Assembly: GCA_001642005.1 (NCBI GenBank)
Contig: LWCA01000052.1
Span: forward strand, 1-64,000
From: Intoshia linei
Lineage: Eukaryota; Orthonectida; Rhopaluridae
Length of the DNA stretch: 64,000 bases
Direction: 5' to 3'
Below, in pieces: positions 20,072 to 40,814 of the stretch. Each line of letters starts with the position of its first letter. Position 1 is the stretch's first letter. The translations under genes were made by a program, and so were the position numbers. Below the pieces are notes generated by a model, which did not search any database, had not been told where the DNA came from, and worked only from the letters and a program-made list of their open reading frames with translations.

Positions 20072-23000
20072 TTAATCTTCTTCTTCGTCTTCTTCTTCAC
20101 CTAATTTTATCGTGTAGTTTTTAATTTTTAATTAATTATTAAATTTATTTTGTTAGTCATTTTATATATTTATTTTACGAAATCTTTGAGGGAGAACAAA
20201 ATTAAAGAAAAGAATAAAAACCTTATTTTTAATTTGGGTAGAATTTCTCATTTTATAAAACTAATTCTGGAAAAAATCATATTTTTTTTATTTATATTTA
20301 GAACAGGAAATATCATTTTATGATATTTTCTTGAGAAAAACCAATTATTTAAAAAAAAACAACTATATCTAAATCCTTCGAAATACACACGTTGTGAAAC
20401 TTTTTACAGAAAAACAAATCAATATATAGAATCGTACCCGAGGCTCCTCTTCAGGACCTCGACGGAATATTTGTAAAATATCAAATTTAGCATTTAAAAT
20501 ATTTTATTCTTTATTATTATAATAGTTATTGGTGTTAAATTTAAAATGTCAAGTCAACACCTCGTTTGCAATACAAAGCATAGTTTACGAAAATTGTGTT
20601 AGGGTCTATTTCAATTTCCATGGCTTCGCGATGGATAGATTCTGCTCTGTATTTATATGTTAAATAGAAATCTTACTTTTATATAAATTTTTTTATGAAA
20701 AAGTTTTATAAACTGATTTTTTTTTTATAAAAAAATTAATATTTTCACATTTCTGGAAATCTGCTTCTTTAATAAAATGTTTCTATAAAAAATATTTGAC
20801 ACAAAAATCGCAATGAAACTTTTTAAATAAAAATAAAATTTTTTAAATGTTAATAGCAAAACATAATATTGCTTTAATTTAGATACAAACTAAATTTTCA
20901 AGAAAAACTAATTTTTACTATGTCTAAAAAACTAATTACACATATGTATTCTCAATTTTACAAAAAATTAATTATTGACGAGTCTGACCGTTCATCTAAA
21001 TTTTTGAAAATATCAATGTCTATGAAACTAATTATTGAAAAAATGAAATTAATATAGATTTGAAGAAAATATATAGATTAAAATGTTAATAATATCGAAT
21101 TTCGTTAGAAATCTCAATTTTATGAGATTTTGCTCAGAAAAAATGAAATTTGAAAAATACAAAAGTTTAACATTATACATTTAACGGGAAAACCTTATTG
21201 TAGAGCTAGGGTTCTCACACTTTTTTCACCGCAAATCTGTTATTTCATATAAAATTTATCTGGGCCGCTAAAACGAAATTACTGTGTAAAATTTAAAAAA
21301 ATACGATTATATAAATTTAATAATTAAAATATTTATTGTCAAAAAATTTTAAAAAAACTTTTTGTAGAAAAATTTATTTTTACTTCATTTGATGAAAATA
21401 TTTCATTTTACATTAATTTTGTATGAAATAGTACTTGACATAAAAAATTTTGACTATAATTCAAATATAATGTATGTCGAAAAAGCCCTTTTCATAAAAC
21501 TTAAGACTTTAAAACATGTATAAATAACTTTTTAGAGATAAATCAAATTTTAATAGCATTTGACACTCAAGTACAATTTTATAAATTGACTAAATCAAAA
21601 TCCCAATTATTACTAAAATTGATGATAAATACCCATTTTTTTAAGCATTTCCGAGAAATATTAAATTTTACTGCACTTGACATGCAATGTTCGAGAGAAA
21701 AACCAATGTAGTATATAAAAATTATCAAATAATATTATTAAAATTTCATAAAACAACTTTCGATCTTTTTTCTGGGGTATACGGGGTGTTATTATCCAAA
21801 ATTATATGAAAAATTAAACAGGATCAATGATCTGTTTCAAATCAAATTTGCATATTTTAATTTCTAAAATTACCTTCTTCTTCCATTTCTGCGGCAATAT
21901 CGGCAGCTTCTTGTTGGGCAGCACGCAGTGAAGCCTATATTTAGTTTACATGTTTTAATCTTTAAATAATGTTACCTCTTCTTCAGGGGTCGGATCATCT
22001 GCTTCCGTAATTTCTGGACCACTTGGATATTCAGTCATTAACATTGGTAGTAATACTGGATCAAAGTTTTCGCCAAGGTATTTTAATCCCCAACCAACGT
22101 AAATATTTTCAAACTTTTTTTCGACGGCATAAGCAACGGCTCCCGGCCATAAATTTGATCGTATTACTGCAATAGAATATTGTGGAATAAGCCCACTAGA
22201 CAAACTTGTTGACCATGGACTAATAAATTTAATTTCAGCATCCTCTGAAAGTGGATTCAATAATGGTGGACCCGTTTCCGGCACTGGTGCATCTTCACTT
22301 TCTTCCTCCAATTCTTCTTCGTCCTCTTCAAATGCATCAGGTTGTTTTTGAACAGGATTCCACCATGTGCAACGGCCTTGTGGTAAAATATGCTGTACAT
22401 GATGTACCCAATTAGCTAATGAAACGTCGCATAATTCACGAATTGGCATGGGTTCGAAATCTACATTTACCATAAATGTATCTCGGCCATCGCTTTCCTC
22501 TAATTCCTCTTCTTCCTCATCGTCAAATTGATAATATCCTAATGGAGAAATTTGAGTTCCAGCACTGATTCTTGCTATTTGGGAACGTAGGTAATTTGAT
22601 TCGTTACCTGGGAAAGGAGGGTAGCTATTTATCTTTGAGTTTAAATTTCCACTGAAAAATGAACGAATTTGTCTTGAAATGTTTATTTGAATTGGTGTGA
22701 CATACTAAAATCTTGAAATTAAACTTTTTTAGAAAATTTAAATTTTACAAGTTTGAATTAGCATTTAGACCAGTGTTTCCCAACCCATTTGGCGTTATCG
22801 CCCATTTTTTAAAATTTTATATATTATTTTTATCGCCCATTAAAAATAAAATTTTAATTTCAAAATTTAAAGTTCTATATATTGTATGCACGAACAAATA
22901 CATTTATTTTTAGATCTAATATGTCAATGAATCTACTTTCTATGTCTTTTTTGGGATCATTGATGTGATCAACAAATTTCTTTATATCAGTACAATTTAT

Positions 23001-25546
23001 TTCGTTTTTTATAGAATGCAATCTAGGAAGTTGGTATAATTCCTTTTTTGCTAAATTATAACTAAAGATTTCTAATTTTTTAATAAACACTGAGATAATT
23101 TTGTTGCAGCATATCAGTGTCAAACTATTTTCTATCTTACTTACTACACAGATAATTGGTGTTAGATAATTTATATTTTCAAACTCTTAATAAATTAATT
23201 ATTGTTCAAATTAATTCAATTTTTTCTTATTTGATAAAATTGAAAATTTAATTTGTTGAAAAAAATTAAAAAAATATATTTTTTTTATATATTTTCGCAT
23301 TGGTCAGTAAAAAAGTCGAAATCGCCTACTATTGAGATTGGGAAACACTAATCTAGACTTTATTTATAAAAAAATATTCAAAATTTGAAAAAATGCGTAC
23401 AATTTTCATGTGTTGAATACAACTGATCCACAGTGCAGTCAATCCAAAAATTAATCAATTATAATAGAAAATAATATTTCTAATCTAATCGAAATCTCCT
23501 AAAATTTCGAATTTATTATAAAGTTTAAAGTATAAACTTTATAGGGTAACATTGAAAATTTTTAAAATATTTCTTTAAAAAATTATAATATAATATAAAT
23601 AATAAATTTAAATAAAATTTCCAAAAATCTCAAGATTTGAGTGTAATATTGGCGATTTTAAAAAAAAATTTTTGAAAAAATCGCTTTTTCCAACCAATAC
23701 CGAAAAAATCTCAATATGATTATAATTTTAACATCAATTTGAAAATTTTTTTGAAAAAGTATTATTTCTAATGAATACAGTTAAAATTTCCAAATTTTCT
23801 ATTTTTTAGGGTAACATTGACAATTTTTGAAATATTTCTTTAAAAAAATATTATTTCTAATGAATTTAAATAAAATTTCCAAAAATCTCAAGATTTAAAA
23901 GGGTAATATTAGCGATTTTAAAAAAATTGCTTTTTCCAACCAATACCGAAAAAATATCAAGAAAAGCTCAATATGAGTATAATTTTAAACCTAAATTTTT
24001 TTGAAAAAGTATGATTTCTAATGAATACAGTTAAAATCTCCAAAATTTAAAAAATTTCTTGAAAAAATTACTTTTTCCGTCTAATATAAAAAAGTGGAAG
24101 ATGGGTATAATTTTTAACAATGTTAAAAATTTTTTGTCACACAATATTTCTAAATTTCTAATAATCTTAGATATAATTTACAAAAGTATCAGGTGATTTT
24201 AGATAATATTAACGATTAAAAAAAAAATTTCAAAAAATTATATTTCTAGTGAATACAGTTAAAATTTCCAAAAGGCTCAAATTTACATGGTAAAATGACC
24301 GATTCTATAAAAATGTTATTTCTAATGAATCAAAATAAACCCACAAAAATTTAAAAACAAAAAATAAATATTTATAACCAAAATGAAAAAGTATAATATA
24401 CATTACCGGTAACCGCGTCCACGTTTCTCCGGGATTATTGCAAACATAGTAAATTTTCTTATTAACACCTGACCTCGGATCCTCACGTGGAACATCAACA
24501 GGTGGCTTGTAATCAGATTTAGGTAATTGATCAAACTCATTAGCCTCTTCATTCTCTTCTGCAGTTTCATCATTAACTTCTGCCTCTAAATTATTTGCAT
24601 TTTGATTTTTTGCGTTCTCATCTTCCTCTTCTTCTTCCTCTTCACCTTCTCGATATTCTGCTTCAACAATAATATAATTATTTACCGTTCCCAAAATTTT
24701 TCCCCAAAATCTAACATTTATTATAGGATGTAATTCCACAAGTTTTTTAATTGCTAGCCATATTTGCATAACTTCATTTGAATTAAATCCTACCCCAGCT
24801 TGCTTAAAATAGTAAAAGTTTTCCTGTAAATTTGGTAGTAGTTGTTCAGTTTCTTCATTTACAGCAGAGTCAATTATATCTTCCGTGTTTATTTTATATA
24901 ACTCGATTTGCTTTTCAGCCTTTTCGATGCTTTCTGGTACAGTTTCAATGGGTGTGAGTTTTGAGTCTATTTTCATTCTAAATTTTTTTTCTTCTCTACT
25001 TATATCTTCAAAAATATCTACAACGTCATCAGGTTGTTCATCAAGAGTTCTGGTTATTACATTTACCAAGTGGTCATAAAGTGATAAATCTGAATCTACT
25101 GAGCATTTCATTAAATACGCTTTTGCTCTTAAAAATTCTTCTTCGTCTTCTTGGTCAATGTCGTCTTCTGGTTTAATGTCCACGCCAGTATATACATTTT
25201 CTTCATTATACTCTTCTTTGTCTTTTTCTTCTTCGCCTTCATCTTCAATGGCGTCCATGCCCATTTCGCCTTCTAACGGTGCTTTTTCTACTTGGTCATT
25301 CTCTTTTTTATCTTGAGAAACAGTTTTATCTTTATTTCCATTTTCTTTTAACAATTCACTTGTTTCTGGGTTTTCTTGTTGTAAATCTTCCTTATTAGGT
25401 TCTATATCATCTGATACTACATCTTCTTCTGGAGGATCTTGTACTTTTGTTATTTCTTTTTCATCAACATTTTTAATATTTTCGACATTTTTTACTTCAG
25501 TGTCTTCAGTAGGACTTAATACTTCGACTTCTTCTTTGATAGACAT
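20072..25546 (-). CDS. RSPH4A/RSPH6A: Radial spoke head protein 4/6 homolog, 4 exons
   Basis: Structural component of the radial spoke head in motile 9+2 axonemes. Exons (minus strand): 25546-24407, 22704-21976, 21934-21874, 20100-20072; all in phase, 652 aa. The N-terminus is a long acidic low-complexity region (about 130 residues). Family motifs follow: [15 protein letters not shown]-like [26 protein letters not shown], then in exon 2 [71 protein letters not shown] and [10 protein letters not shown], ending [14 protein letters not shown]. The last exon is just eight acidic residues plus a glycine. Introns 1 and 3 are about 1.7-1.8 kb and hold repeats; intron 2 is 41 nt. The 3' end faces RTEL1, with 65 bp between the two stop codons. 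Confidence 0.95.
20101..21873. other. RSPH intron 3: repeats and AT-rich degenerate sequence
   Basis: Holds an R3 repeat copy (20440-20650), a long run of loosely repeating AAAAATTT-type units (20700-21720), and at about 21205 a hAT-like terminus (CTAGGGTTCTCACACTTTTTT). No coding sequence seen. Confidence 0.55.
22771..23350 (-). mobile_element. hAT-derived element in RSPH intron 1
   Basis: 580 bp. The ends are CAGTGTTTCCCAA and its inverted match TTGGGAAACACTA, flanked by 8-bp duplications ATTTAGAC / ATCTAGAC (7 of 8 identical), the hAT signature. Inside, minus-strand 23123-22875 encodes a transposase remnant of the FAM200/GTF2IRD2-like type (segments [16 protein letters not shown] and [20 protein letters not shown]). 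Confidence 0.85.
23530..24345. repeat. Degenerate tandem repeat in RSPH intron 1
   Basis: At least four diverged units carry the same order of phrases: 'ttctaatgaatacagttaaa', 'tttccaaa', 'gggtaa(c/t)attg', 'gctttttccaaccaatacc', 'ctcaatatgagtataatttt'. Unit length looks variable, about 100-200 bp. It ends at the exon 1 donor side. Confidence 0.7.
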
Positions 25547-32830: not shown

Positions 32831-35597
32831 AATATCTGACAACCGTCATGCATCAATTATTTACCCGGACATTAATGGAACAAGGTTGCCGACCTCTCAT
32901 GTTAAAATTACATAATATATCAATATATCGTATACATAAGTAAATAAACACAATACATAAATAAAGTAAGGATTATTTAATTACATCAAAATACGGTAAA
33001 ACCCTTGATAGCAAACATATATATTATCATTCGATTTTAACTAAAGAATCTGTCAGTATCACTATTCTATATACAATTAGCTAGTTCTGTAATTCATCAA
33101 TCCTATCGATTCATATGCGTTTTTTGTATAATTATATTTTTTAACGGGGTATGAAAACCAATCACCAAGACTTACCACACCGATGACTTACCAAAACCAG
33201 AAAATAAACGTATTGCTTTAAAAAAAATTTGCAGATATATTATACATAATGTAGGTAATTATATTTAAAAACCCATAGCCACCTCTAAACAACTTTCATA
33301 TCGGATTGTTTGATTTATTAAAAAAATTGTTATAAGCATGTTAAATTCCGACAAACAAAAAATTTAGAAAAATATTTTCCAAGATATACCATTTTCTGAC
33401 TGAAGTTTAACATGAGCTATTTAGTATAAACCGCCGTAATTTTATGGGCCAATGTATAATTAAAATTCTTGTAATGAAAAATCAATTTTAATGATTGGTT
33501 GTAATTTAAATGCCTTTATTATATGTATTGTAATATTGTATTTATTGTCCAACCCGATACAGATTATTTGCAAGAAAAATTCAAATTTTCAAAAAAATAA
33601 TTTGTAGTCATTATTATGTTAATTAAAAAAAATGGAGATGATGATAATTTTCATTTTTAAATGTCACTACCGATCTCGACCTAACCTAATTTATTGTTTT
33701 CTAATAAATTTAATTCTTTACTACCTTCTAATAATTATGAAAATTGATAAAATTAAGATGAAAAGATGAAAGAGTATCTGAAAAAAAATCAATTTTAACA
33801 TCTGCTAGTTTGTAATCTAATATATAGCGTTTCACAATATTACCATTAATAACATTACATATTTAAAATTTAGATTTCATTAGCGATCACGATATTTTAA
33901 TTTTGATTTAAAAAATGAAAAATATTTCTGAACCTTTTGTTAGTTTTAACATTTTTATTATAATATCTTGAGAGGAAGCTTAATATCCATGATACAGCCT
34001 GGGAAGCAAAATTAAGACAACTGGATTTATTTGTATTATTTTATGTTTATGTCGTGCTTACTGAGTAATAAAAGTAGTAGTATTTTATTGAAACGTATTT
34101 CCAATTTTATTATAATAAAATCTTTCAGATAATAGGGCATATGTTGGGTTGTCAATCGTACTTTAATTTTATAATACTCCTTTATTCTGAAAACTATGGC
34201 TGATTTAATTATAAGTATAGTCAGTTTAGAAATTTTATTTAACAATTAATTAAGCATCATTTACAATGGGTATTTTAATAGGTAAACTATTAAATATGGT
34301 AATTTTCAAAACGCAATGGTATTTATGTCGACATTGTAAATTTTGCCACATTTATTTAATGTGTAAATTTCAAATCAAGATATACATTTAACAATTTGTA
34401 AAACTAATTTACATTGACGTTATTATAATACAAATCTATTCATGTCCAATGGACATTGTCCATTTATATTCCCAGATGGATTTTAACCGTAGGGTGCAGA
34501 TAGCATCAAAAGACATTTAAACATTAATAAATTGAGATACTTAATATGTATTTAATGTTTTAAAGCATTATTGACGGCGAAATTAGTTTTTATAAACAGT
34601 AAAACCAGAATCATGCGTTGATTTGTTTTACAGTAAAATACATATATAATATACATTGCATGTTTTAGGATGAATGATTTTGCACCTGTTAAATGTGATT
34701 TCCTTTTTATAGAAAATATAGACCAGTATCTGGCACAGTGAATACACTTAAACAAAAAATTTTCATGAATGAATATATTTATATTTTGACGTTAATTTGT
34801 TAAAATTACTACTAAAATTGAATCCAAAAATTATAAATCTAAATTTAATAATTGTATTTGATAGGCAGTGATATATTTAACCATTTAGTCAAATTTAAAA
34901 TATGAACATTAACATTGAAAACACAAAAATGATAGTTTATTGGGTGTAATCTAAACCAATTAAATGTGAATATACGTAAACTATACGCCTGGGGGTTTAT
35001 ACATACAATTGTTATTGTCTAGATTTTATTTTAAATAAGAGTAATTTAGTTAAATGGTCACATCAAATTTAACACGTGCAAAACTATTCAAGCTTAAGCA
35101 TTTATCATTATATAACAACTCAATTGAAGGTTTATATACAAAATTTCACTTTCAAATTCAAGGCACAAAAATGTACTTTTTTTTATTATAAACGCGAATA
35201 TTGTTTACAAAATAGTTATTGGACAAATTTTACAAGTTGGTTTATATTTTAGTCAGATTGATGATTAGTGAATATCGGAAATAACATTAACATTATTATT
35301 TCATTAGTTTTTTCAATTTCGGTACTTGTTTCAAGTCTTAATTTTTTAAAATGTGTATATTTTAATGTCAGTGGGTGAAGATAATTAGCGCTCATCTTCA
35401 ATGATTACAGTTCATCGACTCGATCGACATATTGATAAATGTTATAAATTGTACAAACATTTATAAATAAACATCAAATGATTATAGTATAGTTGTAATT
35501 TTATTTTACAACTTGTAGTGTTTTTTCAATGTTTTAATGAGTTTCAAATTTAGAACCAATAATACAGGATACATATGAAAGAAAATTGAAAAATATA
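32831..35597. other. Spacer without recognisable genes
   Basis: AT-rich. Near 32880 a short GC-richer string (GGTTGCCGACCTCTCAT) resembles the hAT-like terminus seen at 60950. Several ORFs under 70 codons look random. Nothing else supported. Confidence 0.5.
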
Positions 35598-35936
35598 ATG
35601 CCATTATCTGTAAGCTCACCGAATTTGCCCAATATATATTATACAAAAACCAAAAGATCAAAATCATGCCCTTCGAGATGTATTGAAGAATATGTAGGGT
35701 CTGAATTGAGAAAGTATGGTGATACGTTTCATGAAGAAATACAAGTAGTTTTTATAAATATTTTTTTTCATGTTCAATTTTAGTCATACGAAAAGATTTC
35801 CAAAATTCAATTATTTCTTGTCACGATTACTGTTGTGTGCATGAACTGTTTCAATGTTTCATTTCAAGTTATTCAATTAATATTTAAAAATGTTGTATTA
35901 ATTATTTTATTATTTTTAAATTATTTTGATTTTTAA
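35598..35936 (+). CDS. Candidate BH3-only apoptosis protein, 2 exons
   Basis: Exons 35598-35744 and 35784-35936 joined across a 39-nt GT-AG intron in phase 0; 99 aa. Residues 32-47 (YVGSELRKYGDTFHEE) fit the BH3 pattern: four spaced hydrophobic positions (V33, L37, Y40, F44), the invariant Leu, and the Gly-Asp pair at 41-42, with acidic residues after. The rest is basic at the N-terminus and strongly hydrophobic from about residue 57 to the end (two stretches, 57-70 and 77-95), fitting a C-terminal membrane anchor as in many BCL-2 relatives. No BH1/BH2 motif is present, hence BH3-only. Known role of such proteins: bind the groove of BCL-2 proteins at mitochondria to trigger cell death. The motif is short and could be chance, but the spliced frame, motif and anchor together are persuasive. 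The stop codon overlaps an AATAAA; the SAE1 stop codon lies 77 bp further on, on the other strand. Confidence 0.65.
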
Positions 35937-36013: not shown

Positions 36014-39000
36014 TTAATTTTTGAATATTAAAACGAAGTCAATAGAATATTTTTTTATTTTAAAATCAAATACAAGTACTAAAATTTTTTAATGCTTTCT
36101 AAGTGGGTGTTTTAGACTTAAAAATGATGAAACACTTAATCGAAACGAATATACATGAAACATTTAATGTAATTTACAAATTTATGCAATATGGAATATT
36201 GTTCCAGTTCTAGTTATACCTATTGTTCATAATGTAAAAATTTAATGAAATTGAAAAATACCGTTGAATACGAAAAAATTGTGTATAACAGAATCACTTT
36301 TCGAAATAAACTAAATTTTTGTATATAAATGTATAACGCAAACATTGTAATCGTATTACTTTAATCACATCTGCAGACAAAATTCCCCCAACTATTGAAC
36401 AAATTGAAACCATAGTAATAATAAAATTTCTAAAAATATTGATAAGTCTAAAATAGTAATAAACACAATATTTCGGGTCATTCTTTTTATTCTGACCATT
36501 AATTTTAATTTATAATAGAAAAATAACGTGATCAACACTTTAAATTTTTTTATTTAGAAAAAATCCAAAATAATGAAATTCTTTACTTATTGGAAATTTA
36601 AGACTCATTATTTTAATTGACAACCCTGGATTATGAAACCACTTGTTAGAACATATTCTAAATATTACAGTGTTCCTCGAATACTAGAAAATTAATGAAA
36701 TAATTAAAATGAATGGAAAATGTTTTTATTGCTTGTTCTGAAAAGTAGAAATTAGTATTTATGGTTAGTATTAAATTTTAAAAAGATGTTCTTTAGCTCA
36801 ACCCAGTTCAGTAATTTTTAATGCACTACCCAGCATATATCAAATGTGGATCGATGGAACGAAAGCAGTCCTTATAGAAAATTTTATATAAAATAACTAT
36901 CACTGATACAAAAGATTTTGGAACGTCTGTAATATCCTAATCTTTACAAAATCACCGGTTTAATTCCTTTCAGATTAATACAGAAATAGGGAAGCATTTA
37001 CTTTTCGAAGGCCGCATTAACGTCTCCAAAAAATTTAATAAGGCCACACATTTCTAAATAAAATTTAATCAAATAGAGCAGTGCTTCTCATGGGGTGACT
37101 GGTCACCCAAAATTGTATTATTTTAATATAAGGTGAATACAAAAATTTTCGATAATTGGGGTGAATTATAATTTTTAAGCATATTTTATTCAATTTAGTA
37201 AAATTGTTTGAGAAAAAATCAAAATTTTACCAACCCTTCAGAAAAAAACCGCTTTTACTAATATTTTTCTGAAAAATATCCATTTTACCAAACTTTTAGA
37301 TCAATAACCCTCTATCTCAGGGTATCTTAACCGGGGTGCTAGAATTAATTTCAAAGGTGCTAGAAAAAATATTCTTATTATTTAAATTTTGAATAAAAAT
37401 CTAATTAAACGTATTTTCAAATTGAAATTTACTTTATCACTCAAATAAGTGTATATTGATCTATGCAAAAAATTCGCAAATAGAACAATGAATACGTAAA
37501 GTATGGATTTACTGGGCTTATAGAAATTGGTAAGAATGATAGAGCTCAATGCATGACTGTCATTTTATAATATGTTATTCCAATCTTAAACCTTGTCGTC
37601 TAAACCTAAAACACCTAGAAAAACATTCAAACGATGAAAATACATCGATTGATAATTTTCTCATTAATAGAGCAAGATATGACCAAAAAGGGAAAATAGC
37701 TGTTGTAGAACAAAGTTAGACGTTATGATTTTATCTGAATTTTGGTGTTCACAAATTAATACACATCCTAAACTTTCTAAATTTGGATTGGAAAAAATTA
37801 GCCCTTTTCCAACAACATATCTCTGCGAGAAAGCATTTTCAAGTATAATTAGATCTTATGATAATTAATTTATAATATAGCTATGCTCCACATAAAATCG
37901 AAAACTAAAAATAGATTGGGATAAGTTGTCACACGATATGAGAGTTGCCTTATCTCGAACAAAACCCAGATATGATAAACTTGTTTCCGATAAACAGTAA
38001 CAAAAATCTCACTAATTATATAATCAGTGATGATTCATCACAAATTTATAATGTAAATTAAAATATATTTTTGATTACATAGTTTTGTTGCTTTTATACA
38101 CAAATTATATTCTAGAAAAACATTGGTTTAATTGATACATAATTTAAATCTCATCAAATACAGCATTTATTGATTAGGTTCGATATGGTGATTTTTTAAA
38201 ATCTCAATATAATACGATTTTTAAGTTGAATTTTAAGGTATCATTATATAATTTTTCAGGGATGCTAAGTTTAAAAAAAATTAAGAAACCCTGCTCTATT
38301 TGATCCCAAAAGAAAAAAATCTAATTTCATCAACCCTTAAGGAAAAAACCGCTTTTACCAATATTCTTCTAAAAAATCCCATTTAACCAAAAATTAATAT
38401 TTTAAAAATAATATAATCAATAAAATAGTTTTAAATGAAAAATAATTCAAATTGTTCAGAAGGCCGCACCAAAACGTCAATAAGGCCGCACTTTCCCGAC
38501 CTCTGGTTTAATATTACATTAAATAAACGTAAAAAATGCAAATTACTAGAAATAAACAAAATACCTTTGGAATAAATGTTCATTGAAGAAATCTTTATAT
38601 TCGTTGTAATCTCGTAAAATTATAGTTTTTATCTTTTCTGTTAATTCAACATTGTTTAAATCGGAAATTTTTAATTCTTTGTTAATTTCTGATAAAACTA
38701 GACATACTTATTTATTAGTTAAAATATATACGACAAAATACCAAAATAAAAAAAATTAGATTATCCTAAATTATCCATATTTTACCTTAAACAGCCTGAT
38801 ATATGTTACTTATTGGGCAATAATCGCCACCAATTTTTTAATATAAAAAATTAATTAAATTTGTTATGAAATCAGTTGGTAATCATCGGTCATAGCTTTT
38901 TAAAACAAAAATAACCTTTTTCAAGAATAAAAACAGCATTTTGAGTATATTGCCGTTTACTTTTATTTTTTTTAAGCCATTCTTCAATAGATATTTGGTC

Positions 39001-40265
39001 TCGTCTATTGTATTTAATAAGCTAAACATGTAAAAAAATTTAATATGAATTACTTTCAATATTTCTTCATCCTGATCATTAAGTCTAAACAGAAAAATTG
39101 TAAGTTATCAATAGAGTACCACTATAATAAACTATATTAATCTAAATTCAAAATCCTGTTACGGGTTCAAGATATTTTAAATAAAAAACAATTTTACTTA
39201 AAATTTTTTCTTATGGCCTGTTAAAATATAGATGAATTTAGGGTTCACGGGAAAAAGTTTAGATAAACTCAATTATATTATACGATAAAATTAAATACAA
39301 AAAAATAAAATTACTTGATATAAGAGTAAATATCAAAATCTGTAAAGATTGTCCCATAATAATCAAAACAATTTGCAACATAAAAACCGACATGAAAAAT
39401 TCTACAGTATAAATTGAGTTGCTGTAAAGCGTGTTCTGTCATCATGTATAAACTAGATACGACAATGACTTCATATTTTCTTAAAATGTTTAAACAACTG
39501 TCCACCTCATCTTCCGATTTGTGATTCAATAAACAAGTTTCTAAAACCATTTTAATCTGTTTTTCAGGTGTAACTTTGACATGAGGATTTAATTCTGATA
39601 ATTTTGATGCAACTGATTCCATAAGCTGAAATAAAAAATGACATTAATGAAACAAATTAATTGACACATAAAATATAAAATTTACAGTTTTATCCTCGAC
39701 TGTATCAACCAAAAAATTAGTATTTACATCTGATTCTGTAACTACTTTATCGTCATATACATCAATTGTTTCTATTCCGGCTAAAACCAAATTTTTACAA
39801 ATATCGGCACCAAGAGGGTTCAACCCAATTACAAGAATATTTGATGCTTTTAATCTAAACATTATATTATTAAGGTTACTATATTCTTTTGTCAGCAAAG
39901 AACCAAAAAAATATTTAGGAATATTAAGCTCAAATTTTTAATCCGATAAAAAAAGATTTAAATAGAATCATACCGTATCTACAAAATGTGCACATTCTAT
40001 TATTAGATTTACATTGCACAATGCTCAAAACGATACAAATGGTAAAATCTAATCATTTCAAGTAATTCCGAAATTTTTACGTATTCCTGGTTATTACGAA
40101 AGTAAAAAACCTTTTTTGAAGTTGAATACCCCACAACCTAATTTGTCGGTCATATCGGTCCATTTCCTCTTTGTTTTCAGTTTTATTGACAGGTGGACAA
40201 CCCTCATACTCTTTATAATAATTTATATTATTTTTGAAAGAATTTATATTCACTTTATCACTCAT
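36014..40265 (-). CDS. SAE1: SUMO-activating enzyme subunit 1 (AOS1), 8 exons
   Basis: Regulatory half of the SUMO E1 heterodimer (with UBA2), acting in the nucleus. Exons (minus strand): 40265-40111, 39854-39686, 39625-39315, 39084-39054, 39021-38916, 38697-38565, 36447-36344, 36078-36014; all GT-AG and in phase, 357 aa (human 346). Diagnostic: RYDRQIRLWGIQLQKR (38-52), the nucleotide-fold ILVIGLNPLGADICKNL with LAGI following, and near the end SICSIVGGILSADVIK, matching the family's CAVVGGILAQE. There is no catalytic cysteine, as expected for this subunit. The middle and last exon are highly diverged: the usual FFDG turn is reduced to LVFDF. Intron 7 is 2.1 kb and is filled by nested transposons (see 37079-38400). 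Confidence 0.93.
37079..38400. repeat. Repeat R2, split by a hAT insertion, in SAE1 intron 7
   Basis: R2 begins CAGTGCTTCTCATGGGGTGA and contains a repeated phrase ('ccttaaggaaaaaaccgctt', 'ttaccaatattcttctaaaa'). The reverse complement of the same start and phrases occurs at 40815-41205. Here R2 is interrupted at 37318-38293 by a hAT element; removing it rejoins R2 across a duplicated CTCTAT(C/T)T. Confidence 0.75.
37318..38293 (+). mobile_element. 976-bp hAT element with degraded transposase, nested in R2
   Basis: Starts CAGGGTATCTTAACC and ends with its inverted match TTAAGAAACCCTG, flanked by 8-bp duplications CTCTATCT / CTCTATTT. From about 37540 to 38010 it encodes the C-terminus of a FAM200/ZBED5-like transposase in broken frames (FWCSQINTHPKLSK, SPFPTTYLCEKAF, SHDMRVALSRTKPRYD) with several stops. 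Internal deletion and stops show it is dead. Confidence 0.9.
38455..38515 (-). mobile_element. hAT-type terminus (solo end)
   Basis: Reverse complement reads CAGAGGTCGGGAAAGTGCGG followed by CCTTATTGACG, a GC-rich hAT-like end; a similar 'aaggccgcattaacgtctcc' stretch lies at 37005, so the two may be ends of one element into which R2 and the hAT were inserted. Confidence 0.45.
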
Positions 40266-40814
40266 GAATTTTTTGTTTCTATAGAGATATATAGTAAAAT
40301 TTTGTATGTAACAAAAAAGTTGCTTTAAATTATTAATTAGTTTTCAATTTAATACTGGCATTCTCGCACCTCAAACTGTTCGCACTTCTTCCCGAATTTA
40401 TATTTAATTTTTAAGTTTTATAATTTAAAATTTTGATAAAATTGTGTATCTTTATTATCGTACAAAATAAAATTAAATTGATATGGTTTTGCTATCAAAC
40501 GAAACGGTTTAATTTTAAATTGAGACTATTCATTAATATTTAAAATACTAGTTTTTAAATGATTTAAACAATTTAATACAAAAAGCAAATGGATCCAAAA
40601 ATGGCTCATTATACCTTACCACCAAAAAATGTTTTAATTTTAATTTTAAATACCAATTAAAATTAATTTTTTATTTAGATGATGGACGAACCTGTCCAAA
40701 ACTCAAAGATAATTGTAAACCGACAAATAATTTGGTTTTAATTAGAGCCGTTTTCAATAAAATTAAAATTTCTACCGTGGTATGTATAAAAATATCCCTA
40801 TAATACATTTACTG

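Follow-up and report, generated by a model that had tools for sequence, protein, structure and literature searches.

Does a short reading frame in the genome of the orthonectid Intoshia linei encode a BH3-only protein, a ligand for the BCL-2 proteins of this animal? The initial annotation of a 64-kb stretch of its DNA (the window, taken throughout at its full length) had proposed a new cell-death gene at positions 35,598 to 35,936. We tentatively read this locus as an unannotated, tail-anchored BH3-only gene of the EGL-1/BIM kind, a reading to which we give a probability slightly short of even.

Gene model and BH3-like motif

The initial annotation had joined two exons into an ORF of 99 codons, and its coordinates and sequence were confirmed, with 147 nt, an intron of 39 nt and 153 nt including the TAA stop codon (Table 1). 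Exon 1 lies within an 80-codon stop-to-stop open frame (35541-35780). Read without splicing from the same ATG, the frame encodes 61 residues with the identical BH3 and a hydrophobic end, and terminates at 35781-35783. At the stop codon of the candidate there is an overlapping AATAAA; the chance of finding one within 60 nt is 17%. A search of the I. linei genome (34.65 Mb in 1319 contigs, as searched) with exon 1 gave a single match, and a repeat origin was rejected because only this one copy was found. An overlap could likewise be rejected for the adjacent minus-strand gene, whose C-terminal frame, with the exons joined by eye, ends roughly 300 bp from the candidate, near 36242.

Table 1. Features of the candidate locus and of its neighbours in the window.
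Feature	Position	Strand	Description
Exon 1	35598..35744	+	residues 1-49, ATG at 35598, 49 codons; Ser/Pro/Lys-rich N-terminus and BH3
BH3 core	35694..35741	+	residues 33-48, VGSELRKYGDTFHEEI; matches the strict BH3 pattern
Putative intron	35745..35783	+	39 nt, GT...TTTTAG, GC 0.15; GTAGTTTTTATAAATATTTTTTTTCATGTTCAATTTTAG
Exon 2	35784..35936	+	residues 50-99, 50 codons and TAA; hydrophobic C-terminal tail
RSPH6A region	20075-24406	-	deposited protein spans a 1702-nt gap, possibly a 1773-nt gap too, beside a 41-nt intron
Radial-spoke ORF	24305-25546	-	96% identical to a deposited I. linei protein
ORF of 324 aa	31065-32039	+	coding-like codon usage, 0.19 bits per codon; without Pfam match
ThiF-family gene	36242-40343	-	multi-exon, reads as SAE1-like; converges on the candidate; one exon matches Pfam ThiF at E 6e-9

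The BH3-like stretch can be read directly from the translation as L37-R38-K39-Y40-G41-D42, with four spaced hydrophobic residues, both as originally described. These four are V33, L37, Y40 and F44, with a spacing of 4-3-4. G34 occupies the small-residue slot, and H45 follows F44. The wider core, from I29 to I48, consists of I29-E-E-Y followed by VGSELRKYGDTFHEEI. The hydrophobic moment of the candidate BH3 is 0.54, where a set of 18 known BH3s spans 0.26-0.72 (median 0.45). The claimed absence of BH1 and BH2 was borne out, because no Pfam family matched the 99-residue protein at an E-value of 10.

With a matrix derived from 18 known BH3s, the spliced candidate scored 15.7 bits, which is inside the leave-one-out range of the known sequences (7.2 to 45.3) and at its low end. 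Three other 20-mers of the window (15.8, 14.7 and 13.7 bits) scored higher than the unspliced candidate (12.4 bits), so that the matrix alone does not discriminate. Two of these 20-mers overlap each other in the radial-spoke gene, the third lies in a gelsolin-like ORF, and all three are without LxxxGD. A profile of known BH3 peptides gave 318 matches in the PDB, with chains of BIM, PUMA, BAX, BAK, BID, BAD, BMF, NOXA and EGL-1 among the 60 listed. The profile retrieves known BH3 chains, and the yardstick is therefore sound.

The C-terminus is hydrophobic, as had been stated, with a best 19-residue Kyte-Doolittle mean of 2.29, and it may serve as a membrane anchor. The same value was reached by 2 of 59 nearby non-coding open frames of at least 30 codons.

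The objection that an intron of 39 nt is too short was rejected, since introns of 37-42 nt are present in other genes of this genome. Two deposited I. linei proteins mapped onto the DNA with introns of 41 and 42 nt, plus gaps measuring 118, 1702 and 1773 nt (the third placed by an 8-residue match only), and inspection by eye indicated introns of 37 and 39 nt in the loci L005 (caspase) and L003 (BCL-2). An intron of 39 nt is thus ordinary in I. linei. The splice sites were compared with 36 inferred, uncurated short introns, left from 119 automatic candidates (many of them false, inside coding sequence) after 83 with a GC content above 0.25 had been dropped. The donor ranked at percentile 0.58 and the acceptor at 0.42 of this set, and 15% of GT and 13% of AG dinucleotides overall score equally well. 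The sites are typical for the short introns of the genome, and not special.

Homology searches and comparison with known BH3-only proteins

No homologue of the 99-residue protein was found among 5.8 billion proteins (lengths 54-173 aa), in the PDB or in Pfam. The protein-database search needs shared 5-residue words, and distant BH3-only proteins would therefore be missed in any case. The database includes deposited I. linei proteins (P0001, P0121), and a search over lengths of 54-539 aa found none that contains exon 1. An orthologue in which to compare the LxxxGD core was sought among the proteins searched, and a paralogue in the I. linei genome, with negative results for both. The 22-residue BH3 gave one unrelated match in the PDB (E 0.64), and phmmer detected no homology of the candidate to BIM (BCL2L11) or BMF. 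No paper combining BH3 and an orthonectid was found in the open PMC literature.

A single-sequence structure model of the unspliced 61-residue form predicts a helix over residues 26-60, including the BH3, with block-mean pLDDT values of 69-84 over residues 31-60 and of 47-58 over residues 1-30. The model is to be taken as an indication of helix propensity only.

EGL-1 of C. elegans resembles the candidate in being a short protein with a single BH3, from an invertebrate with few BCL-2 proteins. EGL-1 is not known to have a membrane anchor; BIM has a hydrophobic C-terminus, a feature common to the candidate. EGL-1 was retrieved from the PDB by the BH3 profile (1ty4_C), but not by the whole candidate, and unlike the setting of EGL-1, the genome of I. 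linei contains two BCL-2 loci, of which one encodes a CARD fusion. The BH3 of the candidate, VGSELRKYGDTFHEEI, can be aligned residue by residue and without gaps to that of BIM, IAQELRRIGDEFNAYY (BIM letters match PDB 2nl9_B). Compared with BIM and BMF, the candidate has a Thr instead of Glu or Asp before F44, and a Tyr at the third hydrophobic position. The dynein-light-chain motif, a feature of BIM and BMF, was not seen in the candidate by eye.

Among spiralians, BH3-only genes are likewise described for schistosomes (Lee et al., 2011, as cited in PMC8998228), and a passage of the same source states that BH3-only sequences of nematodes did not retrieve those of schistosomes, nor the reverse. 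The candidate, if real, would be a new BH3-only protein by kind, and a relationship by descent would not be demonstrable, as that passage illustrates across phyla. Sayonara of Drosophila (PMC10107002) is another BH3-only gene that was reported late in a well-studied invertebrate. According to the title and abstract of that paper, Sayonara has experimental evidence.

Chance expectation, coding signal and alternative readings

The foremost rival to a BH3-only gene is a chance ORF in AT-rich intergenic DNA, with a BH3-like stretch and a hydrophobic tail that coincide by accident and were picked out after much scanning. We consider this distinctly possible, if below even probability. In order to estimate the chance expectation, we used a strict pattern (hydrophobic, A/G/S, any two residues, L, any two residues, hydrophobic, G, D, any residue, hydrophobic, polar), which recognises 6 of the 18 known BH3s, and a looser one, which recognises 13 of the 18. 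The patterns were counted in 420 Mb of simulated order-4 Markov DNA trained on the window, corresponding to 12 genome equivalents.

The strict pattern occurred 119 times in this simulation, or 0.018 times per 64 kb and 9.8 times per genome (34.65 Mb); a smaller simulation of 17.3 Mb contained 2 strict motifs, equivalent to 4 per genome. An in-frame upstream Met accompanied 26 of the motifs in 420 Mb, and in 7 cases a Met was located at least 15 codons upstream (0.001 expected per 64 kb, 0.6 per genome). The looser pattern with a Met and an equally hydrophobic tail was found 26 times, or 0.004 times per 64 kb and 2.1 times per genome.

The window itself contains the strict pattern once, where 0.018 are expected, and once with a Met at least 15 codons upstream, where 0.001 are expected, numbers that have to be read with the fact that the BH3 pattern was defined only once the candidate had been seen, much sequence having been scanned before. 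The looser pattern has 4 matches in the window, and an upstream Met is present only for the candidate. The candidate motif is therefore unusual for one window, but not for the whole genome. A chance origin keeps its weight because about ten strict motifs, and 0.6 with the distant Met, are expected genome-wide. It is further favoured by the frequency of hydrophobic frames in AT-rich DNA, with a 19-residue mean of at least 1.8 in 7 of the 59 nearby non-coding open frames, and by the negative outcome of the searches for a homologue or an existing annotation. Against it stand the improbability of the combination within the window and the simulated tails: a hydropathy of at least 1.8 (19 residues, one short GT-AG intron allowed) was found in 0 of the 26 strict motifs with any upstream Met. 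In addition, 200 kb of other I. linei contigs contained no strict match, and none of their 5 looser matches had an upstream Met.

Codon usage bears on the same rival from both sides. The codon test used a small non-coding reference (5.6 kb, in overlapping windows) without the region from 36.0 to 40.4 kb, which holds the minus-strand exons of the ThiF-family gene, and coding ORFs whose ends, which run into introns, had been trimmed. The GC content of exon 1 (0.33) lies within the range of the known coding ORFs (0.30-0.34 in the window) and differs from that of the surrounding 2-kb stretch (0.24), which argues against a chance ORF, as does its codon score of 8.3 bits. Among 172 non-coding open windows, which overlap, none matched this score; among 514 coding windows, 44% scored as low. 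However, exon 1 owes its coding-like score to its BH3 codons, the very part that had drawn attention: these codons score 9.8 bits, a value reached by none of 1742 non-coding windows, and codons 1-28 score -1.5, which 18% of 936 non-coding windows also attain and 7% of 556 coding windows do not surpass.

Exon 2, with a GC content of 0.20, has a codon score of -9.0; of 161 non-coding windows, 47% score at least as high, and only 0.4% of 513 coding windows were lower. Codons 1-28 and exon 2 thus both lack a coding signal, in line with a chance ORF. Low codon scores may be a general property of membrane segments in any gene. Per codon, exon 2 scores -0.18 bits, compared with -0.20, -0.10 and -0.01 for membrane-like stretches of other ORFs, too few (n = 3) to decide; three of six listed stretches were kept, as at least two, perhaps three, were probably translated introns at ORF ends. 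Altogether, codon usage speaks weakly for exon 1 and is silent or against for exon 2.

Alternatively, the locus could be a real small gene with another job, its BH3-like helix being incidental, or it could encode a small membrane protein, as judged by its tail. BH3-like patterns are easily matched: the loose BH3 definition published in PMC6927658, in the form given there in one passage, has 293 matches within the 64-kb window, and a passage of a review (PMC9171138) states that alignments of known BH3s give patterns with little or no predictive value. The strict pattern, with its four hydrophobic residues, Gly-Asp, small residue and polar residue, is nevertheless rare, and possible partners exist in the genome, so that we regard another function as unlikely. 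It is very improbable that the locus encodes a BH3 protein under another gene model, either unspliced (61 residues with a shorter hydrophobic end) or with further exons: the frame does continue past 35744 to the next stop and exon 2 is without coding signature, but the splice sites fit the short introns of the genome and the exon 2 tail is more hydrophobic than 57 of the 59 non-coding frames.

BCL-2 proteins, caspases and a possible role in cell death

A passage in PMC6343361 already reports that Orthonectida have retained caspase and BCL-2 domains. Two loci of the I. linei genome scored above the Pfam cut-off for BCL-2. One of them (L002 on C1266) corresponds to the deposited protein P0121, named 'Bcl-2-related protein A1', which combines an N-terminal CARD (E 2e-10) with a BCL-2 domain (E 4e-12). 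This gene has an intron directly after the BH2 GGW, and P0121 was the sole match (596 candidates) of a protein search with a query without the CARD part. The BH1 arginine, which pairs with the BH3 aspartate, is kept in both BCL-2 proteins, as NWSR in the CARD-BCL2 protein and as NFGR in the C240 gene. A BH3 of the LxxxGD type was not seen by eye in either of them. The predicted structure of the CARD-BCL2 protein (mean pLDDT 40.5) is too poor to show a BH3-binding groove.

Caspases were found at two loci, L004 (C1261) and L005 (C865), with 84% and 91% identity over 786 and 250 bp, which are recent duplicates or unmerged alleles. A BIR domain is present at one locus. CARD occurs at two loci only, in the BCL-2 fusion and in a CARD-PDZ protein on C1096, and a CARD adjacent to a caspase was not detected in the genome. 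The only NB-ARC locus above the cut-off (C758) matches AAA_16 better and reads as CDC6; of two weaker matches, one was read as ATP synthase beta and the other is the fragment L011. Apaf-1 was not recognised in a six-frame, exon-by-exon search of the genome, by which an intron-rich gene could be missed.

The designation as a new cell-death gene thus holds in part. The motif, the normal intron, the lack of a detected BH1 or BH2 and the presence of BCL-2 and caspase genes favour it, but exon 2 and codons 1-28 are without coding support; we consider it a credible candidate, not a finding. For a BH3-only gene, we infer that it would be transcribed and spliced, and that its product would bind and kill in the following way. 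The N-terminal half of the protein would be disordered, and the hydrophobic tail would hold it at a membrane. Residues 29-48 would fold as an amphipathic helix, with V33, L37, Y40 and F44 entering the hydrophobic groove of an I. linei BCL-2 protein and D42 pairing with its BH1 arginine. The BCL-2 protein would thereby be neutralised, and caspases could be activated, in the manner of EGL-1 and BIM.

It is also conceivable, though quite unlikely in our judgement, that a BH3 ligand acting on the CARD-bearing BCL-2 protein would free or cluster it and so lead directly to the caspase, bypassing the CED-4/Apaf-1 step. That the genome search found no CARD beside a caspase counts against such a simple shortcut.

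The distribution of BH3-only proteins is poorly known because they are too short and too divergent for homology tracing across phyla. If the candidate is a true BH3-only gene, the ligand arm of the BCL-2 pathway would have survived, or would have been reinvented, in an animal that ranks among the most reduced, and the candidate would be a concrete ligand to pair with the unusual CARD-BCL2 fusion protein.
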